Source of the DNA: Pedobacter aquatilis
GTDB lineage: Bacteria > Bacteroidota > Bacteroidia > Sphingobacteriales > Sphingobacteriaceae
Length of the DNA stretch: 64,000 nucleotides
Assembly (NCBI RefSeq): GCF_030409415.1
Contig: NZ_JAUFPW010000012.1
Span: 186,001-250,000, forward strand
Reading direction: 5' to 3'
Shown: one piece after another, positions 15,912 to 43,178 of the stretch
How positions within the stretch are numbered: the stretch's first letter is position 1
Layout of the letters: each line of letters opens with the position of its first letter
Position numbers and translations under genes: made by a program
Notes under the pieces: generated by a model
What the model was told of the DNA's origin: nothing
Seen by the model: the letters and a program-made list of their open reading frames with translations, nothing else
Database searches by the model: none

Positions 15912-18113
15912 CTAGCGTCTATTCCAATGTAATTCATACATCTTGTCGCCTTCCAACGTTAGCTCAAAATCCTTATCCATCTGTATGTTTTCTTTATGGT
16001 CACTACCATGAAGTGAAAATGATAAACCCTTATAAGTGTTTTGTCCATCAACGTCTTTATTTACAATTTTTAGTATATGAGTCATTTTTGGACTGCCCAG
16101 CATTTTAAAACGTACAGATTTTTCTTTTTTTTCCATTATCGCATACGGCCCGTCTATGAATATCATAAAGTTATTTTTTAGGATAGTGATGAAATGTCTT
16201 GGTAAAATCCCAAATGCGTTCCCCGCACCGTAAACCTCCTGACCGACTGAACCGCTTTTTTTGTTTCCATCCTGAATATCCTCTAACACTATCCAAAGTC
16301 CTTTTTCCAATTTACCTGTTTTCACCTCTTCCGATAGTACCTCGGGGGATAACATTGGCGGATAGTAAAAGGGTGCCCGGTGTATCAAGTATAGGATATA
16401 CTCAGCACATAGGAGCTTAATACTGGGTAATATTTGCATGTCTTTCGCCTGTTCAAGGTAGTCATGCAAAGCACTAAAAACCTCCTGTTCCTCGTAGGCT
16501 GCAGTATATGGAGCATCGGTCAGGGGAAATAAAGCAAAAAATGTTGGAATCTCTTTGCAATATCCATAACTGCATTCCCAGAGCTGAACATTTTGAAAAA
16601 TTGCAGCAATGCATCTGTAGCTAATGTTGAGGTAGCGTTTGTTGCCTGTTATTTTAAATAATTTTAGCAAAGCCCCTGCGGCAAAAGCAGTGTTATTAGC
16701 TTGATACATAATATCATATCCGACTCTTTCCAGTCGATTTGCTGCCCGGATTGCTTCATCAAGATATTTTTTCGATCTGGTAAGCTCATAAGCTTTTAGC
16801 ATTACATGCGCGTACAATCCAGCTACGTCAGTCTCTCCACCCTTGCCAGGTTCGGTTTCAGCCTTCACGATTTCCAAAGAATCCATTTTGTAGAATACCG
16901 GCCATGTGTAGTCAAACTTGTGCGCAACTTTTATTGCAAATCCAATAGAGTCTAAAAATAATTTTCTGGCCGCTTTATCGCCATCCAGTGCCATTCTGGA
17001 AAGATTTAACAAAGGATGATGCAAGTACCATGAATCCATTACTAAAGGAACTTTCTGTTCTTCTTCACCTTTAAGCATATCAACAGCTCCGGGGTGCCAT
17101 CTTACCAATGATTTCAGTTTTTCATCATAAAATGACGGCAGTCCTTTTTTAATGATTTCTGTGACGGGTAGACTTACACCACTCCATTTAGTATAATCCA
17201 ACAATGGTAACAATACAGCTAGTTGAACCATTATCTCGGGAGGCGTCTGATAATCGCATAAATAAGCATTCAAATAACTGTTTTCATTGAGGCGGGTCCA
17301 ACATCCAGGGTTATATATTAAATCTTCTAACCCATGGGATAAAATTTTTGGCCAGTTTCTGTACTGAGTAGTCGGTCTTGGGAGCATTTTATAAACTTCA
17401 CAGAGCATCTCCAAGTAATCGATAGCGAGATCAGACTGTGGGTTAAGTTTTGTGTTTAAACAAATAAAGGCGTCCGAGAGCACGATTGACTTTCCAGATC
17501 GAAGTGGCTTGGTTATGCTGGGTGGTAATGCCAGGCCTAACTCAGGAAGTTTGCCTCCCACTACGCCGCTTAATGAGGTGTTTGTCTGCTGACAATAATC
17601 ATTTAGTGAACTCAGATTCTGGAAATACAGGACTCGCATCCTGCTTTTAGGTTTAGAAAAGTATGCTAGCCCGGATCGGGTATGGCGTTGTATGCAGTGA
17701 AGGGTTCCAAAGTCTTTTATCGGCTGAGTCTTGGAATGCTGTAATAAAATATCTCTTGGCCAAAACGAAAGAAAGATTTCATAAGCAGGTGTGAATGTAC
17801 ACTTGTATTGCAGCACTGCATAATCTAGAGTTTTTAATGAAATGTTAATCAGAAAATGACCAATCACAGCCTCAATTCTAACCGAAACTCCTCCATCAAC
17901 CGTTCTTGATTTAAATTGATTTATTTTCCCAGATGGGACGTAACAAGGACGGAAATATATCGGCGCCTGGTTGCTATTGCTTATCCTAATCCAAACCGAA
18001 TCAGATGTAAGGTAAACTTTCAATTCAATTTCTGCATGTTCCTGGCGATAAAGCACCATTGACGCTTCAATTTCACTTAACGCACTCAACGCCCACGGAG
18101 ACAGTCCTTTCAT
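15912..18113 (-). CDS. Large alpha/alpha-barrel protein, probable carbohydrate-active
   Basis: 733 residues without a signal peptide. Residues about 1-130 are beta-rich. The centre (about 240-600) has repeated helical hairpins of the six-hairpin type, including ETDVAGLYAHVMLKAYELTRSKKYLDEAIRAANRL and NTAFAAGALLKLFKITGNKRYLN. The C-terminus (about 640-733) is beta-rich again. This layout is typical of glycoside hydrolases and epimerases of the (alpha/alpha)6 superfamily. The specific family and catalytic acids cannot be named. It lies in the same direction downstream of the GT39-type glycosyltransferase, which fits a glycan role. Confidence 0.65.
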   Translation of the reverse strand: MKGLSPWALSALSEIEASMVLYRQEHAEIELKVYLTSDSVWIRISNSNQAPIYFRPCYVPSGKINQFKSRTVDGGVSVRIEAVIGHFLINISLKTLDYAVLQYKCTFTPAYEIFLSFWPRDILLQHSKTQPIKDFGTLHCIQRHTRSGLAYFSKPKSRMRVLYFQNLSSLNDYCQQTNTSLSGVVGGKLPELGLALPPSITKPLRSGKSIVLSDAFICLNTKLNPQSDLAIDYLEMLCEVYKMLPRPTTQYRNWPKILSHGLEDLIYNPGCWTRLNENSYLNAYLCDYQTPPEIMVQLAVLLPLLDYTKWSGVSLPVTEIIKKGLPSFYDEKLKSLVRWHPGAVDMLKGEEEQKVPLVMDSWYLHHPLLNLSRMALDGDKAARKLFLDSIGFAIKVAHKFDYTWPVFYKMDSLEIVKAETEPGKGGETDVAGLYAHVMLKAYELTRSKKYLDEAIRAANRLERVGYDIMYQANNTAFAAGALLKLFKITGNKRYLNISYRCIAAIFQNVQLWECSYGYCKEIPTFFALFPLTDAPYTAAYEEQEVFSALHDYLEQAKDMQILPSIKLLCAEYILYLIHRAPFYYPPMLSPEVLSEEVKTGKLEKGLWIVLEDIQDGNKKSGSVGQEVYGAGNAFGILPRHFITILKNNFMIFIDGPYAIMEKKEKSVRFKMLGSPKMTHILKIVNKDVDGQNTYKGLSFSLHGSDHKENIQMDKDFELTLEGDKMYELHWNRR

Positions 18114-29304: not shown

Positions 29305-29340
29305 TTTGCCTAGGATAGTTTACAATCGTAATATTGCGAT
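29305..29340 (+). promoter_or_regulatory. ars promoter with overlapping ArsR operator
   Basis: TTTG (29305-29308), a 20-bp spacer and TAATATTG (29329-29336) match the Bacteroidota -33/-7 promoter. The near-perfect inverted repeat ATCGTAATATTGCGAT (29325-29340) covers the -7 element, exactly where ArsR would block transcription. A second, poorer copy lies upstream at about 29282-29298. Confidence 0.65.
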
Positions 29341-29348
29341 ACAGAATT

Positions 29349-29678
29349 ATGGGACTTACAAAGACAGAAATATTTACAGAAGAGCAGAACCAGCTTTCGA
29401 TACTACTGAAGGCTATTGCCCATCCCGCAAGGATTGCAATCCTGCAGCAGATCATATCGGCGAACGCCTGCATCTGCGGAGATCTTGTGGAAGAGCTTGG
29501 CCTTGCACAGGCGACGATTTCCCAGCATTTGAAAGAACTAAAAAATGCAGGTATCATCCAAGGAACAATCGATGGGGTTAAAGTGTGCTATTGTATAGAG
29601 CCAAAAACATGGAAGCTGTTGGCAAACCTGTTCGGGGAGTTTATGGGGTCTTATACCGATCCGCAGGGCTGTTGCTAG
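29349..29678 (+). CDS. arsR: ArsR-family metalloregulator
   Basis: 109 residues from the ATG at 29349 (MGLTKTEIFTEEQNQL). Winged helix: KAIAHPARIAILQQI, the recognition helix LAQATISQHLKELKNAG and the wing GTIDGVKVCYCIEP. Candidate As(III) thiols are the CIC pair (NACICGDLVEEL), the C-Y-C pair and the terminal GCC. It represses the operon until arsenite binds. The operator overlaps its own promoter. Confidence 0.92.
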   Translation: MGLTKTEIFTEEQNQLSILLKAIAHPARIAILQQIISANACICGDLVEELGLAQATISQHLKELKNAGIIQGTIDGVKVCYCIEPKTWKLLANLFGEFMGSYTDPQGCC

Positions 29679-29731
29679 CCCCTTTTTTGAGCAAATACAT
29701 CGCAAAATTAAGATACATAAATAAAGAGGAT

Positions 29732-30196
29732 ATGAAATTATCAGAAATCAAAACCATCTTGGCAACCGCTGAAGCAGTTAATTTCCGAGTAGAAAACGGG
29801 GAAACCGTACCCGAACATTTCCATGTGACCGAGGTGGGCATCATTACCAAGGACTTTATCGACTGTGGAGGTAAGGTTCGCCATGAAAAGGTAGCCAACT
29901 TCCAGCTATGGGATGCAGATGACTATGAGCATCGCTTAAAAGCAGAAAAACTGCTAAATATCATTTCGCTTTCCGAGAAGGTACTGGGAATGGAAGACCT
30001 TGAAATCGAAGTGGAATATCAATCTGGAACCATTGGCAAATATGACCTCAGTTTTGACGGAACGAATTTCCTACTGCTGGCTAAACAGACTGCGTGTTTG
30101 GCAAACGAGGCTTGCGGAATCGAAGCGTCAAAAAAGGAAATGGTTAATCTGGCAGGCCCGGCAAAGAGTTGTACACCTGGTGGCAGTTGCTGTTAA
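29732..30196 (+). CDS. DUF6428 family protein of arsenic operons
   Basis: 154 residues from the ATG at 29732 (MKLSEIKTILATAEAVNFRV), which follows an AGAGGA Shine-Dalgarno-like stretch. Motifs include PEHFHVTEVGIITKDFIDCGG. The C-terminus has extra cysteines (TACLANEACG and CTPGGSCC). DUF6428 proteins occur almost only inside ars operons; the biochemical role is unknown. The cysteine-rich tail suggests arsenite binding or delivery (inference). The downstream gene starts 7 bp later. Confidence 0.85.
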   Translation: MKLSEIKTILATAEAVNFRVENGETVPEHFHVTEVGIITKDFIDCGGKVRHEKVANFQLWDADDYEHRLKAEKLLNIISLSEKVLGMEDLEIEVEYQSGTIGKYDLSFDGTNFLLLAKQTACLANEACGIEASKKEMVNLAGPAKSCTPGGSCC

Positions 30197-30203
30197 CCCG
30201 CTT

Positions 30204-30689
30204 ATGGAAATAAGGGAACTATTGGCCTCAGATTGGGAGGCTGTAAAATTGATCTACGAAAAAGGCATAAACAGGGGCAATGCCACTTTTCAGGCTAGCG
30301 CACCCTCCCACGAAGAATGGGACAGCACCCATCTTTTAACCTGCAGGATTGTTGCCGAAGAAAAGGGAAGATTGGTCGGATGGGCAGCATTGACACCTGT
30401 TTCCTCACGTTGCGTATATGCAGGGGTAGCTGAAGTTAGCGTATATGTTGACCCCGAACAATCAGGTCAGGGCATCAGGCTTGCACTCCTAAAAGAACTC
30501 GTTGGGTTGAGTGAAGCAGAAGGAATATGGACGCTGCAAGCAGGTATATTCCCTGAAAATATCGGAAGCCTTCGCATCCACGAAAAGGCGGGCCTTAAGA
30601 TACTTGGGATTAGAGAAAAAATTGGAAAACAGAACGGCGTTTGGAGGGACACTGTACTAATGGAAAGAAGAAGTAATACAATCATTTAA
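30204..30689 (+). CDS. GNAT N-acetyltransferase of ArsN type
   Basis: 161 residues from the ATG at 30204 (MEIRELLASDWEAVKLIYEKG). GNAT fold with acetyl-CoA loop VDPEQSGQGI in motif A and the conserved NIGSLRIHEKAGLK end. The opening and the GNATFQ segment match phosphinothricin-type acetyltransferases, which in ars operons are called ArsN and acetylate the arsenical antibiotic arsinothricin. Substrate is inferred from context. Spacing is 7 bp upstream and 11 bp downstream. Confidence 0.85.
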   Translation: MEIRELLASDWEAVKLIYEKGINRGNATFQASAPSHEEWDSTHLLTCRIVAEEKGRLVGWAALTPVSSRCVYAGVAEVSVYVDPEQSGQGIRLALLKELVGLSEAEGIWTLQAGIFPENIGSLRIHEKAGLKILGIREKIGKQNGVWRDTVLMERRSNTII

Positions 30690-30700
30690 CGATAAAATTT

Positions 30701-31120
30701 ATGAAGAAAATATTAGTGCTATGCACCGGAAACAGTTGCAGGAGCCAAATCGCAGAAGGCTATTTAAGGCATTTTGCCGGAGATAAGGCAGAAGTATATA
30801 GTGCAGGTATCGAAACACATGGCGTAAATCCAAAGGCCATTGAGGTTATGAGAAGGGATGGCATAGACATTTCCGGGCATACCTCAAACAATATTGATGA
30901 ATATTCAGGATTAGATTTCGACTACGTGATCACTGTTTGCGATAACGCAAAAGAGAACTGCCCGTATTTCCCGATCAATGCAGTAAAGTTCCATTATAAC
31001 TTTCCGGACCCAGCAAAAGCTACAGGAACAGAAGAAGAGGTCATGGGAGCTTTCCGCGAAGTAAGAGAGATGATCCGCAAATACGCACAGAACTTTGTTA
31101 TCGAGAACCTAAAGCGTTAA
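30701..31120 (+). CDS. arsC: Arsenate reductase, low-molecular-weight phosphatase type
   Basis: 139 residues. The P-loop CTGNSCRS carries nucleophile Cys8, with Cys13 and Arg14. The redox pair is Cys80 and Cys87 ([10 protein letters not shown]), and the general acid is in FPDPAKATG. It reduces As(V) to As(III) using a thioredoxin-type disulfide cascade. It ends one base before the ACR3 gene. Confidence 0.95.
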
Positions 31121-31121
31121 G

Positions 31122-32186
31122 ATGTCGGTAACTAATTGTGCGCCCACAGTCGAGCGAAAAAAACTGGGTTTCCTTAACCGTTACCTCACCCTTTGGATAT
31201 TTTTGGCGATGGGAATCGGGGTAAGTGTTGGTTATTTTATACCATCATCATCATCGGACTTTATTAATTCATTCTCCAGCGGAACAACAAATATACCACT
31301 GGCAATCGGGCTGATCCTGATGATGTATCCGCCACTGGCTAAAGTGAGATATGAGAAGATGGGCGAAGTATTCAAGGACACAAAGGTTTTAACCGTTTCA
31401 CTGGTATTGAACTGGGTCATCGGGCCGCTATTGATGTTCTTTTTAGCGATAACTTTTTTAAGGGATTATCCTGAATATATGGTTGGCCTGATCTTAATTG
31501 GACTTGCCCGTTGTATCGCAATGGTCGTGGTGTGGAATGAACTGGCAGGAGGAAACCGTGAATATGCAGCTGGCCTTATAGCGCTGAACAGTATTTTTCA
31601 GGTATTGTTGTACAGTGTTTTTGCCTATGTTTTCATTACGATATTGCCTCCCTATTTTGGATTAAAAGGTCTGGAAGTGGACATCACAATTGGTGAAATT
31701 GCCAAGAGTGTCGGCATATACTTAGGTTTGCCTTTTGCAATGGGTATTATCTCAAGGTTCGTTTTGCTCAAACTTAAGGGAGAAGAATGGTTCCGGGAAA
31801 AGTTTGTGCCGATGATATCCCCGATTACCTTGATTGCATTGCTTTTCACTATCGTAATCATGTTCAGCCTTAAGGGTAACCTCATCGTTCAGATTCCGAT
31901 GGATGTGGTCCGGATTGCGATACCGCTAGTGATCTACTTTTCGATCATGTTCGTGGTCAGCTTTTTTGCAGGCAAATACTTCGGTGCAGATTATTCACGC
32001 AGCACATCAATTGCTTTTACGGCAACGGGAAACAACTTCGAACTGGCCATTGCAGTTGCCATAGGCGTATTCGGGATCAACTCTGGTCAGGCATTTGCAG
32101 GAGTGATCGGTCCACTCGTAGAAGTTCCAGCGCTGATTGCGCTGGTCAACCTCGCATTCTGGTTTCGCAGGAAATATTATAAATAA
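31122..32186 (+). CDS. acr3: Arsenite efflux transporter ACR3
   Basis: 354 residues with ten membrane segments. The conserved [20 protein letters not shown] contains the essential Cys of ACR3 (BASS superfamily). [16 protein letters not shown] is the second conserved helix. It exports As(III) by antiport with protons. It is the last gene of the operon, followed by a hairpin. Confidence 0.96.
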
Positions 32187-32214: not shown

Positions 32215-32350
32215 ACTAATCTATCTTTTATGGTTATTTAATATTCGCGAATTGAAAATATTTTAAGAGAAGCTGGACAAACACTAATAGGCCTGGTAGG
32301 ACTTTGGGCGCTGTTTTTCTCAGCCTAGTAATCTATATCAACATGAAAGA

Positions 32351-32362
32351 TGATCTTTGTCA
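32351..32362 (+). promoter_or_regulatory. Possible FNR/FixK-type box
   Basis: TGAT-N4-GTCA, one mismatch from the two perfect boxes in this island. A CTTTG resembling the end of a -7 element lies at 32389-32393, which would place the box near -42. It lies 46 bp before the chosen start of the NPD-like gene. It is weaker than the other two boxes. Confidence 0.4.
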
Positions 32363-32407
32363 CATTCTTGCAGGCCAAAAAGATGGTTCTTTGAATTAAA
32401 ACGCAAA

Positions 32408-34231
32408 ATGGCACATACTTTTCATATCCCGGTACTAGGTTTGGCTTATTCTATAGACACACCGCTCAAAGTTGCAAAATTTGGCATTTCATCTGTTGTA
32501 TCTATCGTTGATGATGAACTTTGCGAAAGAATGCGGCAGTACCATGCTGAGCTGAATGACGAAATTTTTGTAGGTATTTTAAAGTCCGAAAACGATTTCC
32601 GTGCTAAAAGAATAACTGCATATCTCAATTTGATAAAAAAAATAGTGGATAAGCAAATAGATGCGATCAGAAATCAAAAATTTGAACCAGAGGAAGATAT
32701 TATCAAGTATTTTGAATTACTGCCTCAGACAGCGCCTTTAAAAATTGTTTATGAATTGATGTTAGCTGAAAAATCACCTGCAAGGAGAAAAACGCTCCAA
32801 AAGCAGCTAAGAAACGAAATTAAACCGGGCAGGATTGATGTTAACATCATGGCGAAAGTTGATAAAATCAACTTCATTAAAGGCATTAATTCCGGGCTTG
32901 AAAATAGTGATGCTTTGGCCGCTTTGAGGGGATTTGCCAACAGTAATCTGAATTCAGCTGTAGTGATTTCTGCCGGTTTAAATCCGAGGTTATACAGCTA
33001 TCTGGAAACATTTGAAGATTTTTATCCAACCGGGAGTGGAGTGTGTCATAAACAAATTATTTTAAAAGTCAGCGATTTCAGGTCTGCAAATGTTCAGGCA
33101 AAACTGCTCGCTAAGAAAGGTTTGTGGGTCAGCGAATTCAGGATTGAATCAGGTTTGAACTGTGGTGGTCATGCTTTTGCAACCGAAGGGTTACTACTTG
33201 GACCGATTTTGCGCGAGTTTAAAAACTCGAGGGAGGCACTGCATAATGATTTGCTCCCAATTTACACAGGCGCCTTAAATTTAAAAGGAATACACGATAA
33301 TTTTATACCTGAGCAAAGAATAACAGCGCAAGGGGGAATTGGAACTGCAGGTGAACAAAATTATTTAATGGAAAATTACGGCCTTGATGCAACAGGTTGG
33401 GGGAGTCCTTTCTTGTTGGTTGATGAGGCAACAAGTGTTGATAGCGACACTTTAAACCAACTTGTTATCGCGACTGAAGATGATTTTTATTTAAGCAATT
33501 CATCTCCACTCGGCGTACCCTTCAATAATTTCAGAAAAAGTTCAGTAGAAACAGAAAGAATGGAGCGAATAGCTAAAAACCGTCCGGGTAGTCCGTGCAC
33601 CAAAAAGTACCTGTGCAGCAACACTGAATTTACTACAGAACCGATTTGCACGGCATCAAGAAAATACCAAAACCTGAAAATTAAATCGCTCGAATCCTCA
33701 AATTTATCAGCAATTGAATTAAGCAGACAAATTGATTCCGTTACCGAAAAAATATGTCTTTGCGAGGGTTTGTGTAGTTCCACTTACATCAAATACAACT
33801 TACTAAAACCAAAAGAAAGTAAAGCCATAAGTATTTGTCCGGGGCCAAACCTGGCTTATTTTTCGAAAAAATACACATTAAAAGAAATGATTGACAACAT
33901 CTATGGTAGAATTAATTTGCTTGATGGTATTCACAGGCCAAATCTATTTACCAAAGAGTTAAAATTATACATAGACTACTTTAATAAAGAAGTTGAAAAC
34001 TTTAGTAATGGTATCTTCAACGTGGTTCAAACCAATAAAAAAATCGATTACCTGAAAAAATTCTATAATCAGCTTCAGCAAGGAGTAGACTATTATCGCA
34101 GCAGCATTGAAAAGGCCGATGCCAATTTAAAAGTATGGAGTCAGGAGCAGATCTCTTTATTTGAAAAAGCAGTCATGCAAATAGGTGATTTAACACCTCA
34201 ATTGTTAAATTTGTGCAGTAAGTCGGAGTAA
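32408..34231 (+). CDS. Uncharacterised nitronate monooxygenase-like protein with Cys clusters
   Basis: 607 residues from the ATG at 32408 (MAHTFHIPVLGLAYSIDTPL). The first 380 residues look like an FMN TIM barrel of the nitronate monooxygenase group: IDTPLKVAKFGISSVVSIVD at the start, then GGHAFATEGLLLGPIL and ITAQGGIGTAGEQNYLMENY. The remainder is unusual: Cys pairs near 397 (CTKKYLC), 415, and 450-456 (CLCEGLC), then a helical tail. These could hold an Fe-S or metal centre (inference). It lies 24 bp before the FixL-like kinase and is probably in its operon, which argues for a role under low oxygen. Confidence 0.75.
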   Translation: MAHTFHIPVLGLAYSIDTPLKVAKFGISSVVSIVDDELCERMRQYHAELNDEIFVGILKSENDFRAKRITAYLNLIKKIVDKQIDAIRNQKFEPEEDIIKYFELLPQTAPLKIVYELMLAEKSPARRKTLQKQLRNEIKPGRIDVNIMAKVDKINFIKGINSGLENSDALAALRGFANSNLNSAVVISAGLNPRLYSYLETFEDFYPTGSGVCHKQIILKVSDFRSANVQAKLLAKKGLWVSEFRIESGLNCGGHAFATEGLLLGPILREFKNSREALHNDLLPIYTGALNLKGIHDNFIPEQRITAQGGIGTAGEQNYLMENYGLDATGWGSPFLLVDEATSVDSDTLNQLVIATEDDFYLSNSSPLGVPFNNFRKSSVETERMERIAKNRPGSPCTKKYLCSNTEFTTEPICTASRKYQNLKIKSLESSNLSAIELSRQIDSVTEKICLCEGLCSSTYIKYNLLKPKESKAISICPGPNLAYFSKKYTLKEMIDNIYGRINLLDGIHRPNLFTKELKLYIDYFNKEVENFSNGIFNVVQTNKKIDYLKKFYNQLQQGVDYYRSSIEKADANLKVWSQEQISLFEKAVMQIGDLTPQLLNLCSKSE

Positions 34232-34255: not shown

Positions 34256-35449
34256 ATGGAAAGAGCAAGGTTACTGAGTGCGATAATAGAAAATGCAATT
34301 GATGGTATTATTACGATCGACGATAGGGGAATTATCGAACATGTTAATCCTGCAGCGCTTAAACTTTTCGGCTTTGAAAACGGTGAGTTAATCGGTAAAA
34401 ATGTGTCGGTTTTAATGCCTATGCCAGACAAAGAAAAGCATGATTCCTACATAAAACACTATAACGATACCGGTCAAAAACGCATCATTGGCATTGGCAG
34501 AGAGGTAACCGGACAAAGGAAAGATGGCTCTACCTTCCCTTTTCGTCTAGGTGTTAGCGAAGTTAAATTTAGTGACCGTAAAATATATACGGGCTTTATT
34601 CACGATTTAAGTAAGCTTAAAGAAAATGAAGCCCGGATTTTAAGTTATACAGAGCAACTGGAAGATAGAATTAGGGAACGCACGCAAGATTTGGTTAAAC
34701 TGGTTTCGGAACTTCAATCGGCAAAGGAACACGTTAATGCTCTTTTTGAAAAAGAAAAAGAACTAAATCAGTTAAAAACCCGGTTTGTTTCAATGGCTTC
34801 TCACGAATTCAGAACACCTTTGAGTTCAATACAGCTATCGGCAACATTAATTGATAAGTATAATCCAAAACGCGATACCGAAAATATCGAAAAACATACT
34901 GGTAAAATTAAAAACGCAGTAGGTAACCTTACCACAATTCTCAACGATTTTCTGTCTCTTGAAAAATTAGAAGCCGGAAGAGTTGAGGTTAATCCATGCT
35001 GGTTTAATGTTGTTCGTTTCGCTGAAGAAATTGTTGAAGAAATGCAGCTAATCAGCAAACAGGATCAGCATATTATTTATGAACATAAAGGAACCTCAGC
35101 AGAGGTGAACTTAGATAACAACCTTTTAAAAAACTGTATAATTAACCTAATCTCAAATGCGGTGAAATATTCAGGAGAAAATACGATGATCCAGTTTAAC
35201 AGCGCTTTAATGGATAACGAATTAATAATTGAAGTAAAAGACAATGGAATTGGTATTCCTGAGGCCGACCAGCAAAACCTTTTCGAACCATTTTTTAGAG
35301 CCCACAATACCGGTAGCATTCCGGGAACCGGACTCGGCTTAAACATTGTTAAACGGTATATTTCTTTAATGCAAGGTGAGGTATCTTTGGAAAGCGCACA
35401 AAATATTGGCACCACAATCCGCCTGAAAATTCCTTTTACAAATCAATAA
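34256..35449 (+). CDS. FixL-like haem-PAS oxygen-sensor histidine kinase
   Basis: 397 residues. The PAS domain (about 5-120) contains KHDSYIKHYN...IIGIGREVTG: His62 and Arg82 are 20 residues apart, like His200 and Arg220 of Bradyrhizobium FixL, the haem ligand and the oxygen-contacting Arg. Next come a coiled coil, the H-box MASHEFRTPLSS, DNGIGI and GTGLGL. It is soluble. Low oxygen should activate autophosphorylation and transfer to the regulator encoded 13 bp downstream. The domain assignment is strong; haem binding is inferred from the conserved residues. Confidence 0.93.
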   Translation: MERARLLSAIIENAIDGIITIDDRGIIEHVNPAALKLFGFENGELIGKNVSVLMPMPDKEKHDSYIKHYNDTGQKRIIGIGREVTGQRKDGSTFPFRLGVSEVKFSDRKIYTGFIHDLSKLKENEARILSYTEQLEDRIRERTQDLVKLVSELQSAKEHVNALFEKEKELNQLKTRFVSMASHEFRTPLSSIQLSATLIDKYNPKRDTENIEKHTGKIKNAVGNLTTILNDFLSLEKLEAGRVEVNPCWFNVVRFAEEIVEEMQLISKQDQHIIYEHKGTSAEVNLDNNLLKNCIINLISNAVKYSGENTMIQFNSALMDNELIIEVKDNGIGIPEADQQNLFEPFFRAHNTGSIPGTGLGLNIVKRYISLMQGEVSLESAQNIGTTIRLKIPFTNQ

Positions 35450-35462
35450 TTTTCCATTTTAA

Positions 35463-36494
35463 ATGAGCAAAAAAGTTCTGATAATTGAAGACAACGATGA
35501 TATCCGCGACAGCACAGCTGAAATTTTGGAGCTTGCGGGATATAAAACCTTTACCGCTGTTAACGGTAAAATCGGTGTAGATTCAGCCATTAAAAATCAT
35601 CCGGATCTTATTTTGTGTGATATTATGATGCCTGAATTAGATGGCTATGGCGTGTTGTACCTCTTGCATAAAAACCCGCAAACGGCTTCCATCCCCTTTA
35701 TCTTTATTACTGCAAAAAGCGAAAGGGCTGATATGCGAAAAGGTATGGAAATGGGTGCTGATGATTATCTAACCAAACCTTTTGATGATATCGAATTGCT
35801 AAAAGCGATTGAAGGCAGGTTGAAAAAATCAACAACAAGCGGTAAATTTAACCACCAATATAGCGATACACAAACACTATTTGCTGATTTGATTAAAAAA
35901 GGAAAAATTAGAATTTTAGCCAATAAGCAAATCATTTACATAGAAGAAGACCAGCCTACGCACGTTTACTTCGTAAAAAAAGGACAGGTAAAAACCTACA
36001 AAAGGTTTAAAGATGGACGTGAGTTATCGTCCGCGCTCTACCAGCCTGGCGATTTTTTTGGTTATGAAAGTCTGTTTACAGAAACCCCTTACCAGGATAA
36101 TGCGGCTACGCTTGCCGATAGTGAAATCATCTTGATACCCAAAACGGAATTTATCGACTATCTCTATCAACACCAGCCCATTTCGGCTGCATTTATTAGA
36201 CTTCTATCTGGCAATATTCGCGATAAGGAAAATCAAATGTTGCAGCTGGCTTATTTTTCAGTACGTAAGAGGGTTGCAGATGCACTAATCCAGGTTGCGG
36301 AGAAATTTGATTCAATAGCAGATGACAAATCCACTATTAAAATCTCCAGAGATGATTTAGCCGCAATTGTGGGTACCGCAAGCGAGACGGTTAGTAGAAT
36401 GCTCGCTGATTTTAAGGAAGAGAAACTGATAGAAAAAAGTGGTAATGCTATTAAAATCTTCTCGATAGATAAATTAAAAAATATCAAGCATTAA
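35463..36494 (+). CDS. Response regulator fused to a Crp/Fnr module
   Basis: 343 residues. The receiver domain covers 1-120, with phospho-acceptor D53 (CDIMMP) and the switch Lys in LTKPFDD. A Crp beta roll is at about 140-250 (DQPTHVYFVKKGQVKTYKRF, PGDFFGYESLF) and a Crp/Fnr helix-turn-helix at about 300-320 (ISRDDLAAIVGTASETVSRML). It has no Fe-S cysteines. In rhizobia FixL acts on FixJ, which then induces FixK; this one chain combines the receiver and the FixK-type DNA-binding part. Likely targets are the TGAT-N4-ATCA boxes at 36520 and 40939. Confidence 0.93.
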   Translation: MSKKVLIIEDNDDIRDSTAEILELAGYKTFTAVNGKIGVDSAIKNHPDLILCDIMMPELDGYGVLYLLHKNPQTASIPFIFITAKSERADMRKGMEMGADDYLTKPFDDIELLKAIEGRLKKSTTSGKFNHQYSDTQTLFADLIKKGKIRILANKQIIYIEEDQPTHVYFVKKGQVKTYKRFKDGRELSSALYQPGDFFGYESLFTETPYQDNAATLADSEIILIPKTEFIDYLYQHQPISAAFIRLLSGNIRDKENQMLQLAYFSVRKRVADALIQVAEKFDSIADDKSTIKISRDDLAAIVGTASETVSRMLADFKEEKLIEKSGNAIKIFSIDKLKNIKH

Positions 36495-36519
36495 TTTTTG
36501 AGCTAAAAAAAATCATTCC

Positions 36520-36584
36520 TGATCAAAATCACTTTTTAAGGTGACTCACCTCAGGGCTGCTGCCCTAAACAAACGATAGTTTTG
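36520..36584 (+). promoter_or_regulatory. FNR/FixK-type box and promoter
   Basis: TGATCAAAATCA (36520-36531) is a perfect TGAT-N4-ATCA palindrome and continues CTTTTTAAGG. The -7 element TAGTTTTG (TANNTTTG) is at 36577-36584. Box centre to the end of the -7 element is 58.5 bp, the same as before ccoNO, placing the box near -65. Confidence 0.75.
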
Positions 36585-36602: not shown

Positions 36603-37034
36603 ATGAAAGCAATCGCTTATAACATTAAGCCCGATGAAAAAGAATGCCTGGTACTTGCCAATCATAAAAAGCATGATATCACTATAATTGCAAATAGCCT
36701 TTCTTTTGAAACCATAGCATTTGCCGAAGGAAAGGAAACGCTTTTAGTTTTTAACAACGATATTGTTGATGAGCAAATTGTAAATAGGTTAAAAGAATTG
36801 GGCGTTAGATACATAGCAACTTCATCATTTGAAACCGGACACCTTGATTTAAAATCCGCGGCAAAAGCCGGATTAAAAATAGCCAACGTACCACTGAAGG
36901 ATGAGCAAAGTCCTTTAGATAGAATGAATCGGGTCATTAAAAATCTTGATAATTGGTCAGCTGGAAAATGTGTTGGAAGTGCCTGTTGTTGCCAGAATAA
37001 TTGTGGTGTTGTTAAATCATTAAATCAAGAGTGA
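36603..37034 (+). CDS. Stand-alone D-lactate dehydrogenase-like domain with Cys tail
   Basis: 143 residues from the ATG at 36603 (MKAIAYNIKPDEKECLVLAN); the promoter at 36577-36584 rules out an earlier start. Residues 1-110 match the N-terminal half-domain of D-2-hydroxyacid dehydrogenases (ETLLVFNNDIVDEQIVNRL, GVRYIATSSFETGHLDLKSA, GLKIANVPL). The NAD-binding Rossmann domain is absent. The C-terminus carries CVGSACCCQNNC, five cysteines within 12 residues, likely a metal or Fe-S site. The stop codon overlaps the hemN start (TGATG). It is a possible ligand-binding or redox-responsive partner; function unknown. Confidence 0.8.
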   Translation: MKAIAYNIKPDEKECLVLANHKKHDITIIANSLSFETIAFAEGKETLLVFNNDIVDEQIVNRLKELGVRYIATSSFETGHLDLKSAAKAGLKIANVPLKDEQSPLDRMNRVIKNLDNWSAGKCVGSACCCQNNCGVVKSLNQE

Positions 37035-38380
37035 TGGACACGCTAGCATTATTAAAAAAATACAATGTTGCTGCACCCCGCTACACAAGTTATCCAACAG
37101 TGCCTTTTTGGGATGTAGATAAATTTGGGACCGACCACTGGCTTTTTTCAGTTAGGAAGTGTTTTGATAAAAGTAAAAATGATGGGATAAGTTTATACAT
37201 CCATCTTCCCTTTTGCGAGAGTTTATGTACTTATTGCGGCTGCAATACCAGAATAACTAAAAACCATCAAGTAGAAAATCCATACATTGAGGCTTTGCTA
37301 AAAGAATGGCAAATGTATGTTGGAGTTTTGGGCGAAAAACCTAAGATAAAAGAAATTCATTTAGGTGGCGGGACACCAACTTTCTTCAGCGCAGAAAATC
37401 TATCAAAATTAATAAAAGGTATTTTATGGAATAGTGAGCCTACTGCAGATTCCGAATTTTCTTTCGAAGCACATCCCGATAATACCAGCGAGGCGCATTT
37501 ACAAACACTTTACAACCTTGGTTTTCGCCGTTTAAGTTTAGGGATTCAGGATTTTGATGAAAAGGTTCAGCAGATGATCAATCGTTACCAAACGCCACTG
37601 CAGGTTGAACACGTAACCAAACTTGCCCGAAAAATTGGCTACCAGTCTATAAACTTTGATTTAATTTATGGACTTCCGTTTCAAAGCTTAAAAGGTTTGG
37701 AGGAAACGATAAACCAGGTGATTAACTTGAATCCCGATAGGATTGCATTTTACAGCTATGCGCATGTACCATGGCTGAAACCCGGCCAAAGAAGATATAC
37801 AGAACAAGATTTACCCAACAGTAAAATGAAGTTTGAACTGTACAATTTGGGTAAAAGCAAATTACTAAAAGCCGGATTGGAAGAAATCGGGATGGATCAT
37901 TTCGCAAAAAAAAGCGACAGCCTGTTCACCGCTTTGGATCAAAATAATCTGCACCGAAACTTTATGGGCTACACCCATCAGCATACCGCGTTACTTATTG
38001 GTCTGGGTGTTTCATCAATAAGCGATAGCCTAGATGCTTTTGCACAAAATGCTAAAACTGTAGAATCATATCTCGAAAAGATTAACAAGGATAGTTTTGC
38101 AATAGAAAAAGGTCATATTTTAACTGATAGAGATTTAAAAATCCGCAGGCAAATTACAGAAATTATGTGCCGTGGTATGAGCAGCTTTACCAACGGGATT
38201 TCACAATCCATACACCACAAACTTGCACCCCTGATCAACGATGGATTGATTTACTTAAGCGAAAACAGACTCATCGTTAACAATTCCGGTAAACCCTTTT
38301 TAAGAAACATATGTATGGCATTCGATGAGCGGTTGTGGGAAAAAACTCCAGCCACGCAGATGTTTAGCTATTCGATTTAG
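37034..38380 (+). CDS. hemN: Oxygen-independent coproporphyrinogen III oxidase
   Basis: 448 residues. It starts with APRYTSYPTVPFWD, the HemN signature. The radical-SAM cluster motif CESLCTYCGC begins at about residue 61, and LGGGTPTFF follows. It converts coproporphyrinogen III to protoporphyrinogen IX without oxygen, supplying haem for the cbb3 oxidase under microaerobic conditions. It is translationally coupled to the upstream gene and 31 bp before ccoI. Confidence 0.95.
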   Translation: MDTLALLKKYNVAAPRYTSYPTVPFWDVDKFGTDHWLFSVRKCFDKSKNDGISLYIHLPFCESLCTYCGCNTRITKNHQVENPYIEALLKEWQMYVGVLGEKPKIKEIHLGGGTPTFFSAENLSKLIKGILWNSEPTADSEFSFEAHPDNTSEAHLQTLYNLGFRRLSLGIQDFDEKVQQMINRYQTPLQVEHVTKLARKIGYQSINFDLIYGLPFQSLKGLEETINQVINLNPDRIAFYSYAHVPWLKPGQRRYTEQDLPNSKMKFELYNLGKSKLLKAGLEEIGMDHFAKKSDSLFTALDQNNLHRNFMGYTHQHTALLIGLGVSSISDSLDAFAQNAKTVESYLEKINKDSFAIEKGHILTDRDLKIRRQITEIMCRGMSSFTNGISQSIHHKLAPLINDGLIYLSENRLIVNNSGKPFLRNICMAFDERLWEKTPATQMFSYSI

Positions 38381-38411: not shown

Positions 38412-40796
38412 ATGGAAAAACTATACAAAATTGCTTCCAATGAAATTTGTTACCATTGTGGCGAATTGCTTGATTGCGTCATACATAGCCTTGACAACCA
38501 CGATTTTTGTTGCGCAGGCTGTAAAACCGTCTATAAAATTTTATCAGAAAATAATCTCTGCAATTACTACAGCTACAACGATACGCCCGGGAAAAGGATT
38601 CAAAATAAGCGTCATTTTGAATATTTAGAAGAAGCTTCAATAATTACGCAGTTACTGGATTATCAACATGAAAAAGCAAGCATTATTACCTTCTATATTC
38701 CTGCAATTCATTGTAGTTCTTGCATCTGGCTTTTAGAACATCTCTATAAAATTAACGAAGCAATTTTTTCTTCCAGAATCGATTTTTTAAAGCGCCAGGT
38801 TACCATCGGCTTTAAACATGAAGAAATTTCCCTTAGAAAACTCGTTGAAACTTTGGCAGATATCGGTTACGAACCACTTATTAGTTTGCAAGATGTCGTA
38901 AAAGAGCATGGTAAATCTATAAACAAAACCCTCGTTCAAAAAATTGCTGTTGCCGGTTTTTTAATGGGCAATGTTATGCTTTTCAGTTTTCCGGAATATT
39001 TTGGGCTAAATGGATTTGAATCGCAATTTCAAAAGCTTTTTGGCTGGCTGAATCTAGCATTTTCTATTCCGGCAGCATTGTATTGCGGGAAAGAATATTT
39101 TACATCAGCCATTACAAGTTTAAAACATAAACAAATTAACCTCGATACGCCACTTGCGCTAATTATTACTGTGCTATTTATGCGCACAGCTTTCAACATT
39201 ATTTTTGATAGGGGACCTGGTTTTGCAGATACCCTAACTGGCTTGGTTTTCTTGCTTTTAATGGGTAAATGGGTGAAGCAGCGAACCTACCACCACATAT
39301 CATTTGAAAGAGATTACCGGTCCTACTTCCCCCTTGCGGTAACCAAATTGGAAAACGGTAAAGAAACACCTATTGCGATAGAAAAGATAAAAATTGGAGA
39401 TAGGTTATGGATACGAAACGGAGAAATTGTGCCTGCTGATGCGATTTTAATGAAGGGTGATGCCTGGATGGACATGAGTTTTGTTACCGGGGAATCAGAA
39501 CCAATTGCTAAAATTTTGGGCGAAATTATTTATGCCGGTGGACGGCAAACTGCCCAGGCAATTGAAATTGAAGTGATTAAACCGGTTTCTCAAAGTTATC
39601 TGACTGGTTTATGGAATAATGACAACTATCAGGCTCGCTCAAAAAAACAGACTTTTAATGATAGCATCGCAAAGTATTTCAGTCTGGTCGTTTTCATAAC
39701 TGCTTTTGGTGCAGCGGTCTATTGGCTTTTTGAAAATAATACACAAAAAGCATGGGCCGCATTTACGGCAGTTATTATTGTGGCTTGTCCTTGTGTGCTG
39801 TCCTTAAGTACACCATTTACACTTTCTGCAATTTTATCAATTTTTGATAAAAAAGGATTTTATGTAAAAAATACAGATGCAATTGAAGCATTTGCCGCTT
39901 GCGATACGATAATTTTCGATAAAACAGGAACCTTAACGACCGCGGATAATTCAGAACTATTATTTACGGGTTTTCTCGATTATCACGAACAGGTGCTCGT
40001 TGCATCATTGGTTAGAAATTCTGCCCATACACTCAGCCGGCAAATACTACAAAACCTTTCATGCGCCAATTACCTGCCGGTTTCGAATTACATGGAAATA
40101 CCAGGGAAAGGAATTACTGGCGTTATTCACAATAGCGCGCTATATCTGGGAAATACAGGTGTTTTACCCGAAACGTTAAAAAATATTCAGCATAATGGTG
40201 TTCATTTTGTAATAGATAAAGAATATAAAGGTTGCTTTCAATTAAGGCAACAATGGCGTGAGGGCTTGCCTGAACTGCTGAATCAACTTGCAAAAAACTT
40301 TAAGCTTCATGTTTTGTCTGGTGATACTGACCACGAATATTCGATACTTAAAACTTTATTTCCCGGTAATTCAAGGATAAACTTTAAAGCAAATCCCCAC
40401 CAGAAATTAGAATATGTTTTATCAGAGCAACAGAGAAGTAAGAGCGTTATCATGCTTGGTGATGGATTAAATGATGCAGGCGCATTAAAGCAAAGCGATT
40501 TTGGAATTGCCATTACCGATAACATAAACAATTTTACGCCTGGTTGCGATGCAATCCTAACGGGAAAGAATATTGGCTTGCTCCCAAATTTTGCTGCACT
40601 CAGCCGGGATGGTTTAAAGGTTATTAAAATAAGCTTTGCGATTGCTATCCTATACAACTGTATTGGCATTTATTATGCCGTTCAGGGGACTTTATATCCA
40701 TTAATTGCTGCCGTTTTAATGCCAATAAGCACCATTACAATTATATCTTTTACCTCTGTCGCTACGCATTTTTTCGCCCGTAAAAACAGATTATGA
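38412..40796 (+). CDS. ccoI: Copper-translocating P-type ATPase for cbb3 assembly
   Basis: 794 residues. The N-terminus has Cys pairs (CYHCGELL, CCAGCKTVY) and a second site, HCSSCIWLLEH. Membrane helices follow. The CPC motif is at about 459-461 (ACPCVLSLS), the phosphorylated Asp in DKTGT is at about 503, and GDGLNDAGAL is near the end. This is the FixI/CcoI group that delivers copper for the CcoN binuclear centre. The stop overlaps the ccoS start by 4 bp. Confidence 0.95.
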   Translation: MEKLYKIASNEICYHCGELLDCVIHSLDNHDFCCAGCKTVYKILSENNLCNYYSYNDTPGKRIQNKRHFEYLEEASIITQLLDYQHEKASIITFYIPAIHCSSCIWLLEHLYKINEAIFSSRIDFLKRQVTIGFKHEEISLRKLVETLADIGYEPLISLQDVVKEHGKSINKTLVQKIAVAGFLMGNVMLFSFPEYFGLNGFESQFQKLFGWLNLAFSIPAALYCGKEYFTSAITSLKHKQINLDTPLALIITVLFMRTAFNIIFDRGPGFADTLTGLVFLLLMGKWVKQRTYHHISFERDYRSYFPLAVTKLENGKETPIAIEKIKIGDRLWIRNGEIVPADAILMKGDAWMDMSFVTGESEPIAKILGEIIYAGGRQTAQAIEIEVIKPVSQSYLTGLWNNDNYQARSKKQTFNDSIAKYFSLVVFITAFGAAVYWLFENNTQKAWAAFTAVIIVACPCVLSLSTPFTLSAILSIFDKKGFYVKNTDAIEAFAACDTIIFDKTGTLTTADNSELLFTGFLDYHEQVLVASLVRNSAHTLSRQILQNLSCANYLPVSNYMEIPGKGITGVIHNSALYLGNTGVLPETLKNIQHNGVHFVIDKEYKGCFQLRQQWREGLPELLNQLAKNFKLHVLSGDTDHEYSILKTLFPGNSRINFKANPHQKLEYVLSEQQRSKSVIMLGDGLNDAGALKQSDFGIAITDNINNFTPGCDAILTGKNIGLLPNFAALSRDGLKVIKISFAIAILYNCIGIYYAVQGTLYPLIAAVLMPISTITIISFTSVATHFFARKNRL

Positions 40797-40975
40797 ACAT
40801 ACTTTACTTTCTGGTTGGTTGTAGTGTACTTATGGCAGTAATATTTTTGGCAGCTTTTTTCTGGGCATCAAAAACGGGTCAGCATGATGATGTTTATACT
40901 CCTGGTGTTAGAATTCTTTTCGATGATGAAGATAAAACTGATGAAAATCACTTTTCAAGGCAATCATCATCATAA
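40793..40975 (+). CDS. ccoS: cbb3 oxidase maturation protein CcoS
   Basis: 60 residues: one N-terminal membrane span (LYFLVGCSVLMAVIFLAAFFWA), then the CcoS-type KTGQHDDVYTPGVRILFDD with a short acidic tail. CcoS is needed for cofactor insertion into cbb3. The 3' end of the gene carries the FNR-type box for ccoNO (40939-40950). Confidence 0.9.
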   Translation: MNILYFLVGCSVLMAVIFLAAFFWASKTGQHDDVYTPGVRILFDDEDKTDENHFSRQSSS

Positions 40976-41036: not shown

Positions 41037-43178
41037 ATGCAGTTAGAAAAATTTACTTACGACAATAAGATTGTCCGCGATTTTGGTATTGCAACAATTG
41101 CATGGGGCCTTATCGGTATGACAGTAGGTCTTATTGTTGCTATCCAGCTTTTTACACCAGGCATGAATCTGGGTAATCAGTACACCACCTTTGGCAGAAT
41201 CAGACCTTTACACACAAATGCGGTAATTTTTGCCTTCGTCGGCAATGCTATTTTTATGGGTGTTTATTATTCTCTTCAACGCCTGCTCAAAGCGCGTATG
41301 TTTAGTGATGCGCTGAGTAAAATTCACTTTTGGGGATGGCAGCTCATAATTCTGTCTGCAGTAATTACGCTACCACTGGGTTTTACAACATCTCACGAAT
41401 ATGCGGAACTGGAATGGCCTATTGATATTGCCATCACTTTAATTTGGGTGGTATTTGGTATTAATATGTTTGGTACAATATTTAGAAGAAGAGAACGCCA
41501 TTTGTACGTTGCCATTTGGTTTTACATAGCTACGTTCGTAACCATAGCGGTATTGCATATTGTAAATTCTTTTGAATTACCAATCTCTTTTATGAAGAGC
41601 TATTACGTGTATGCGGGCGTTCAGGATGCGCTTGTACAATGGTGGTACGGACATAACGCAGTAGCCTTCTTTTTAACAACGCCTTACCTGGGAATGATGT
41701 ATTATTTTCTTCCAAAAATGGCTAATCGTCCGGTGTATTCTTATAAATTAAGTATCCTCCACTTCTGGTCTTTAATATTTATTTACATCTGGGCCGGTCC
41801 GCACCACTTATTATATTCTTCATTGCCTGGATGGGCGCAATCTTTAGGCGTAGTATTTTCAATTATGCTGATTGCTCCAAGCTGGGGTGGTATGATTAAT
41901 GGTTTGCTAACACTAAGAGGCGCCTGGGATAAAGTAAGAGAGGATGTGACTTTAAAATTTATGGTCGTTGCGCTAACCTGCTATGGGATGGCAACCTTCG
42001 AAGGACCTTTATTATCTATTAAACAAATCAATGGCGTTGCACACTTTACCGATTGGATTGTTGCGCACGTACACGTAGGTGCATTAGGTTGGAATGGATT
42101 TTTAACTTTTGGCGTTTTGTACTGGTTAATCCCCCGTATTTATAAAACAGATTTATACTCTAAAAAAATGGCTCGTTTCCATTTCTGGATAGGCACTTTG
42201 GGTATTCTTTTTTACGCCGTACCGATGTATTGGGCTGGCTTTACCCAGGGTTTAATGTGGAAAGAATTTACCGCTGAAGGTTTGTTGAAATACCCGAACT
42301 TTTTGGCTGTGACCTTACAAATTATTCCGATGCATGTTTTCAGAGCTGTCGGAGGCGCATTTTATTTAACGGGTGCTATTTTTATGGCTTATAATTTGGC
42401 CAAAACCATGTTAAAAGGTAAGCTGGTTGCAAATGAAAATGCAGAAGCGATGGCTCTGGAAACGGTTCTGGCAGATACCAATCCCATGGATAAATCCTGG
42501 CACCGCATTTTAGAGCGTAAGCCAATGAAGTTTATGGTAATGTCCTTAATTATCATTTTAATTGGTGGTATGGTGGAAATGATGCCAACTTTTACCATCC
42601 AGTCGAATGTGCCAACCATAAAAAGCGTGAAGCCTTACACCGCTTTAGAGTTGCAAGGAAGGGACTTATATATCCGCGAAGGTTGCGTGAACTGCCATTC
42701 ACAAATGGTCAGACCTTTTCGCTCTGAAACTGAACGTTACGGGGAGTACAGCAAGGCCGGAGAATTTGTCTATGACCATCCTTTTTTATGGGGAAGTAAA
42801 CGCACGGGACCTGATTTACATCGTTTAGGTGGCAAATATTCAGATGCCTGGCATTTCAATCATTTGGTCGACCCAACATCTATGTCGCCCGGAAGTATTA
42901 TGCCCCCTTACCCATGGCTGGTAGACCAGAAGTTAGACATTACGACCACGCCGGGAAAAATCAGGGCAATGCAAACTCTTGGTGTTCCGTATCCGGACGG
43001 TTTCGAACGTGAGGCTAATGATGAGCTAAAAAAGCAATCAGAAAAAATAGCTGCTGAGCTAAACCAGAACAACATTAAAGTAAACAGCGATAAGGAAATT
43101 ATTGCCATTATTGCTTATCTGCAGCGCTTAGGAACGGATATTAAAACCAATAAAGAAAATATTCCATCTAATCAATAA
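41037..43178 (+). CDS. ccoNO: cbb3 cytochrome oxidase fused subunits I and II (CcoNO)
   Basis: 713 residues. Residues about 1-480 are CcoN with about twelve membrane helices and the haem/copper ligands in RPLHTNAVIFAFVGN, WWYGHNAVAFFLT, GPHHLLYSS and HVHVGALGWNGF. The C-terminal part is CcoO, with one membrane helix (about 500-520) and the haem-c motif CVNCHSQMVRPF at about 550. Fusion of CcoN and CcoO is usual in Bacteroidota. It is the catalytic core of the high-affinity terminal oxidase. Confidence 0.97.
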   Translation: MQLEKFTYDNKIVRDFGIATIAWGLIGMTVGLIVAIQLFTPGMNLGNQYTTFGRIRPLHTNAVIFAFVGNAIFMGVYYSLQRLLKARMFSDALSKIHFWGWQLIILSAVITLPLGFTTSHEYAELEWPIDIAITLIWVVFGINMFGTIFRRRERHLYVAIWFYIATFVTIAVLHIVNSFELPISFMKSYYVYAGVQDALVQWWYGHNAVAFFLTTPYLGMMYYFLPKMANRPVYSYKLSILHFWSLIFIYIWAGPHHLLYSSLPGWAQSLGVVFSIMLIAPSWGGMINGLLTLRGAWDKVREDVTLKFMVVALTCYGMATFEGPLLSIKQINGVAHFTDWIVAHVHVGALGWNGFLTFGVLYWLIPRIYKTDLYSKKMARFHFWIGTLGILFYAVPMYWAGFTQGLMWKEFTAEGLLKYPNFLAVTLQIIPMHVFRAVGGAFYLTGAIFMAYNLAKTMLKGKLVANENAEAMALETVLADTNPMDKSWHRILERKPMKFMVMSLIIILIGGMVEMMPTFTIQSNVPTIKSVKPYTALELQGRDLYIREGCVNCHSQMVRPFRSETERYGEYSKAGEFVYDHPFLWGSKRTGPDLHRLGGKYSDAWHFNHLVDPTSMSPGSIMPPYPWLVDQKLDITTTPGKIRAMQTLGVPYPDGFEREANDELKKQSEKIAAELNQNNIKVNSDKEIIAIIAYLQRLGTDIKTNKENIPSNQ

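Follow-up and report, generated by a model that had tools for sequence, protein, structure and literature searches.

The window analysed here, a stretch of 64,000 nucleotides of Pedobacter aquatilis DNA (contig NZ_JAUFPW010000012.1, positions 186,001 to 250,000), contains an oxygen-related gene island that starts with an open reading frame for a 607-aa protein. For this protein and its family, the working name NPDx is used. The genes of the island are arranged in the order NPDx, FixL-like kinase, receiver-Crp fusion, P36, hemN, ccoI, ccoNO, ccoP, ccoG, ccoH and a gene for a DsbD_2 protein. The relevant features of the window are as follows:

32347..32366, no strand assigned: Crp/Fnr-type box AAGATGATCTTTGTCACATT, about 42-61 bp ahead of the NPDx start codon
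32408..34231, plus strand: NPDx, putative flavo-Fe-S, FabX-like protein of 607 aa, from the ATG at 32408 to the stop codon at 34231
33161..33172, plus strand: predicted catalytic-His loop C-G-G-H of NPDx (codons 252-255), invariant and aligned with EGPLAGGH of FabX-like proteins
33596..33838, plus strand: putative [4Fe-4S] site of NPDx (codons 397-477) with the invariant residues Cys397, 414, 450, 452 and 477
34256..35449, plus strand: FixL-type heme-PAS histidine kinase
35463..36494, plus strand: receiver domain fused to a Crp-family DNA-binding protein
36516..36535, no strand assigned: second Crp/Fnr-type box, ahead of the P36-hemN pair
36603..37034, plus strand: P36, 2-hydroxyacid dehydrogenase half-domain with a Cys-rich tail
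37034..38380, plus strand: HemN, oxygen-independent coproporphyrinogen III dehydrogenase (from its translation), a conserved neighbour
38412..40796, plus strand: CcoI/FixI copper P-type ATPase (from its translation), a conserved neighbour
40935..40954, no strand assigned: third Crp/Fnr-type box, ahead of ccoNO (23.7 bits)
41037..43178, plus strand: CcoNO, fused cbb3 oxidase

NPDx and the kinase gene, which starts at position 34256, are separated by 24 bp. The PAS domain of the kinase matches the heme PAS domain of rhizobial FixL (2.4e-32) and has kept the heme-His segment KHDSYI. The receiver-Crp fusion encoded next to it is a probable FixJ/FixK-like partner. Of a D-2-hydroxyacid dehydrogenase (PF00389), P36 comprises the substrate half alone, and it ends in the Cys-rich tail GKCVGSACCCQNNCG; it was also matched in 39 related loci, usually directly before hemN and with the same Crp/Fnr box ahead of it. 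Upstream of NPDx (29334-32186), the genes for an ArsR-like regulator, an ArsC-like phosphatase, an ACR3-type transporter, an acetyltransferase and a CC-rich protein form, to judge from their sequences, an apparent arsenic cassette unrelated to the oxygen island.

NPDx is a real and strongly conserved family. A genome scan yielded 131 relatives, of which the best 80 all belong to the Bacteroidota, and the closest ones are 56-66% identical. Moreover, 112 of the 296 Bacteroidota genomes sampled contain a match (111 full-length and one fragment), and thus the open reading frame cannot be attributed to chance. The conserved N-terminus M-x-H-x-FHIPV speaks for the placement of the start codon. Carrier genomes, including the source genome, almost always possess a single copy. 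One genome has a second copy in pieces (G095:C1:4371179-4372856), with several partial matches, one of them containing two TGA stops, and this copy is apparently a decaying paralogue. The source protein has no significant match among the Pfam and NCBIfam models, including PF03060, TIGR03151 and TIGR02814, and across 76 aligned members no Pfam family was consistently common, with NMO ranking outside the 25 commonest. When Pfam, NCBIfam, PHROGs and the PDB were searched directly at the HMM and sequence level, only chance or coiled-coil matches emerged, a fold search of BFVD returned nothing beyond a generic phage NPD, and a plasmid search was without a match. Among the open-licence papers retrieved by literature searches, none describes the family, as judged by titles and abstracts. 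NPDx is therefore a widespread enzyme family of the Bacteroidota that has no name in the family libraries searched.

A structural model calculated with AF2 from the 76-sequence alignment (pLDDT 91.9, pTM 0.92) has the FMN-type TIM barrel fold of the NMO/FabK superfamily (residues about 1-375), followed by a cysteine subdomain (about 376-500) and a helical tail (about 510-606). The tail, which is poorly conserved, consists of the helices 513-534, 539-569, 579-593 and 595-606. A Foldseek comparison with the PDB placed PfaD (9.7e-11) and the Helicobacter pylori FabX (1.9e-10) at the top, and the further matches included the enoyl reductases DfnA and MlnA, FabK, NMO and the NADH:quinone reductase PA1024, with E values of the top matches between 1e-10 and 1e-6. 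In the best explanation, NPDx would be a flavoenzyme of the cytosol that belongs to the NMO/FabK/FabX superfamily and has a predicted bound FMN. Both the flavin-barrel fold class and the linkage to low-oxygen genes described below can be regarded as very likely.

The H. pylori enzyme FabX (HP0773) is a decanoyl-ACP dehydrogenase/isomerase containing FMN and a [4Fe-4S] cluster with the ligands C300, C304, C308 and C320, the catalytic residue His182 and a positively charged ACP-binding helix formed by K152, R160 and R164 (PMC8626469). FabX-like proteins of about 419 aa, which are mostly 36-41% identical to FabX where aligned, are encoded in two Bacteroidota families of the sample (f15 and f17). 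Profile alignments by hhalign revealed that NPDx is colinear with these proteins over 269-272 columns with scores of 43.9 and 36.8, whereas the maxima from 60 column shuffles per comparison were 28.5 and 31.9, reversal gave 16-20 and ordinary NMO proteins scored 24.7 over 60 columns only. The alignment places H255 of NPDx on His182 of FabX, QGGIGT on AGGIFTG and SPLG-PF on the S-TGYPMR segment. Moreover, C397, C414, C450 and C452 coincide with the cysteines of the PNC, KC-YI and CLC motifs and are thus common to the FabX-like family.

The conserved residues of NPDx include motifs of an enzyme active site. Among the invariant residues are N146-I-M, S188-A-G, K220/D223/R225-S and E247-S-G-x-N-C-G-G-H255 on the N-terminal side, Q308-G-G-x-G, G330-W and S366-P-L-G further on, and C397, C414, K448-x-C450-x-C452 and C477-P-G-P-N in the cysteine region. 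The invariant H255 corresponds to the catalytic histidine that follows the GG motif in FabX. C252, which is located three residues before H255, is invariant in NPDx, while FabX and the FabX-like proteins have Ser or Ala at this position. The glutamate E175 of FabX is shifted by one residue in the alignment. In an ambiguous register, the invariant R225 aligns with K152 in the ACP-contacting helix of FabX, and K232, K236 and K237 are nearby. Seven of the 11 cysteines fall into two groups (397/403/414 and 450/452/456/477); among the aligned orthologues, 252, 397, 414, 450, 452 and 477 are invariant, whereas 403 and 456 vary. From this conservation, we infer that NPDx is likely to bind an Fe-S cluster, and C397, C414, C450, C452 and perhaps C477 are probably the ligands of a [4Fe-4S] centre. 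The spacing C-x3-C-x3-C-x11-C of H. pylori FabX is absent, and for this reason NPDx was not filed as FabX; the order of the cysteines is that of the FabX-like Bacteroidota family.

An earlier note, made from the DNA letters, had described an FMN-barrel-like part, at least seven cysteines in two groups and a long helical tail, encoded 24 bp before an oxygen-sensor kinase, and had proposed to compare the structure with FMN barrels. All of these descriptions agree with the results given above, with the refinement that two of the grouped cysteines are not invariant. The suggestion that the protein is a redox enzyme also gains support from the fold, the FabX-like alignment and the invariant cysteines, and the statement that it resembles none of the known cbb3 accessory proteins is right within the searches made. 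Neither of the two outcomes that the note had named as refuting, a structure unrelated to FMN barrels and a lack of conservation with fixL-type genes, was observed.

A de novo search of the upstream regions uncovered the palindrome TGAY-N4-RTCA with A/T-rich flanks. It is present within 150 bp of the NPDx start in 60 of 81 near-relative loci and in 14 of 60 loci elsewhere, as compared to 33 of 519 other genes (6%). The same box precedes ccoNO (27/44), the P36-hemN pair (14/14) and ccoI (14/48), and of all sites in the window, the one ahead of ccoNO at 40935 scores highest with the motif derived from the NPDx upstream regions. Thus, at the level of sequence, NPDx has the Crp/Fnr-type box and the gene linkage of the cbb3/low-oxygen regulon in common with ccoNO and hemN. 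The box is presumably bound by the receiver-Crp fusion, and NPDx may be induced at low oxygen together with the cbb3 oxidase and HemN. Upstream of NPDx, there was no enrichment of the classical Fnr pattern (TTGAT-N4-ATCAA) or of NsrR-like patterns. A genome-wide scan that allowed two mismatches gave 98 sites as compared to 67 in the control; this excess is modest, and no genome-wide regulon is therefore claimed. Another strong TGAY-N4-RTCA-like site is located at 17129-17148 and has no start of a gene longer than 90 aa within 250 bp.

The gene neighbourhood was compared in 80 near-relative loci, mostly from Sphingobacteriaceae. At least one of fixL, the receiver-Crp gene, hemN and the cco genes lies within 8 kb of NPDx in 67 of them. 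Outside the Sphingobacteriaceae, NPDx is mostly located away from fixL, either alone or beside nos, hemN, RIC and Rrf2 genes, and the recurrent neighbours are nosZ (assigned by TIGR04246), NosDFYL (named by their sequences), RIC, Rrf2, COX15, hemN, a truncated globin and a multicopper protein. In nos-linked loci, NPDx is adjoined by a 542-aa protein (L131:7250-8878, minus strand, and five related loci), which at L131 combines a long N-terminal part of membrane-embedded appearance with a truncated globin at the C-terminus (PF01152, residues 425-514). Among genomes that carry NPDx together with the respective gene, nosZ was found within about 15 kb of NPDx in 16 of 54, against an expectation of 0.4, and ccoN in 7 of 82, against an expectation of 0.6; these cases are not all independent because they are confined to about four and three taxonomic families, respectively. 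In counts that are not corrected for phylogeny and that follow clades, ccoN exceeded the cut-off in 82 of 111 NPDx carriers and in 62 of 185 non-carriers, and nosZ in 54 of 111 and 44 of 185, respectively. Outside family f17, both associations are weaker (p = 2e-4 for ccoN and 0.05 for nosZ).

The distribution of fatty acid enzymes would be consistent with a role in lipid synthesis. Among 148 sampled genomes, the FabX-like proteins (30 genomes) and NPDx (57 genomes) never occur together, and an O2-dependent desaturase is present in 90 of 111 NPDx carriers versus 89 of 185 non-carriers; both patterns follow clades. The source genome itself encodes an acyl-ACP desaturase (PF03405, 1.3e-140). Based on this exclusion and co-occurrence, an acyl-ACP flavoenzyme for low oxygen is the preferred reading. 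According to this working hypothesis, to which we assign a probability of about 0.4, NPDx would be a low-oxygen-induced flavo-Fe-S acyl-ACP enzyme in an O2-sparing route to unsaturated fatty acids, complementing the O2-dependent desaturase. By analogy with FabX/UfaA, the enzyme would accept an acyl-ACP (or acyl-CoA) intermediate, H255 would abstract the alpha proton and the hydride would be transferred to FMN. The Fe-S cluster might then relay the electrons to an acceptor for which ample O2 is not required, such as a quinone, ferredoxin or traces of O2. The 2,3- or 3,4-unsaturated intermediate formed could serve the synthesis of unsaturated fatty acids under conditions in which the O2-dependent desaturase is unable to function. 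The substrate, the reaction and the electron acceptor are those that we infer. No fatty acid genes were recognised beside NPDx, and many genomes with cbb3 oxidase and desaturase lack it, as do two genomes of the same genus that possess a desaturase. Furthermore, 21 carriers are without a recognised desaturase, and thus NPDx is not simply a back-up everywhere.

The same 21 carriers render the link to desaturation less than strict, which would suit an enzyme acting on another acyl-ACP, acyl-CoA or polyketide-like substrate, for instance a PfaD/FabK-like enoyl reductase or one that tailors special lipids or quinone side chains. PfaD and the enoyl reductases of trans-AT PKS systems are indeed as close in fold as FabX. 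However, among the families compared, NPDx aligns better by profile with the FabX-like family, which has the same four cysteines. Moreover, the vicinity of NPDx contains no recognised PKS or ACP genes and PfaD (TIGR02814) is absent from all 296 sampled Bacteroidota genomes, and this alternative appears unlikely. A protective function against nitrosative stress, by oxidation of nitronates and nitroalkanes or by handling of NO, is suggested by the name of the superfamily and by the neighbours nosZ-LDFY, RIC, Rrf2 (of the superfamily of NsrR) and the truncated globin in other lineages. This function is rather improbable, since the source genome has no nosZ match and carries NPDx next to cbb3 and hemN genes, ordinary NMOs align more poorly and are missing from the Pfam families listed for the 76 members, and the cysteine domain is of the FabX type.

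The linkage to both respiratory enzymes and to CcoI, NosDFYL, COX15 and HemN would also be compatible with a factor that takes part in the maturation or repair of cbb3 oxidase and/or N2O reductase and donates electrons to copper, heme or Fe-S assembly. We judge this to be similarly improbable because many genomes with cbb3 or nosZ are devoid of NPDx, 18 carriers have neither ccoN nor nosZ above the curated cut-offs and NPDx has the fold of a flavoenzyme that oxidises its substrate. The earlier note had also considered an additional sensor feeding the FixL kinase. Conservation with fixL is evident among the near relatives, in which fixL immediately follows NPDx in 38 of 80 loci and is no more than 8 kb away in 51, but the association is not obligate, as fixL is generally absent from the vicinity elsewhere. 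Moreover, the invariant catalytic histidine and the relationship to acyl-ACP enzymes argue for an enzyme, and the Crp/Fnr box in its own upstream region for a target of the regulon. Thus, of the earlier interpretation, the redox enzyme is supported, whereas a sensor role is very improbable.

Returning to the acyl-ACP enzyme, NPDx probably allows the bacteria to make an essential lipid when oxygen runs out, perhaps unsaturated fatty acids. It is more doubtful that NPDx represents a new and widespread class of flavo-Fe-S acyl-ACP enzymes, which would provide aerobic Bacteroidota with an O2-independent route to unsaturated lipids (neither FabA nor desaturase) under the operator of the cbb3 oxidase and, in denitrifying lineages, beside N2O reductase. 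If the lipid reading holds, it would explain how desaturase-dependent bacteria maintain fluid membranes during respiration of N2O or at very low O2, and the low-oxygen respiration regulon would gain a gene for lipid synthesis. Even without the lipid reading, the family, carried by more than one third of the sampled Bacteroidota genomes, is a hitherto unrecognised component with links to both cbb3 oxidase and N2O reductase, and H255 and C397/414/450/452 are clear residues to test.

With nitronate monooxygenase and FabK (PF03060, TIGR03151), NPDx shares the barrel and the phosphate-binding GG motif; in contrast to these proteins, it has no HMM match and a weak profile score, and none of the ordinary members compared possesses such a cysteine domain. 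PfaD and the trans-acting enoyl reductases (4yx6, 4z9r, DfnA, MlnA), compared by fold only, are the top structural matches and resemble NPDx in size and in their extra helical parts. The likeness to H. pylori FabX comprises the FMN TIM barrel, the catalytic His after GG, the C-terminal cysteine subdomain behind the barrel and the low-oxygen setting. However, the identity is about 15%, NPDx is much longer (607 versus 363 aa), the cysteine spacing differs, and an extra helical stretch (about 50-140), the helical tail and the position in a respiration locus are peculiar to NPDx. The FabX-like Bacteroidota family (L203, L209, L212 and relatives) is probably of the kind found in gut Parabacteroides, whose FabX-like protein has been related to gonococcal NGO1024 (PMC11300592). 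Its members have the pattern C..C..CLC..CWTC instead of the C-x3-C-x3-C-x11-C of H. pylori FabX, and the ligation of the Fe-S cluster may therefore vary among FabX-type enzymes. The final CWTC pair of these shorter proteins lacks a clear counterpart in NPDx, whereas both families share the four cysteines C..C..CLC and align colinearly by profile over about 270 columns.
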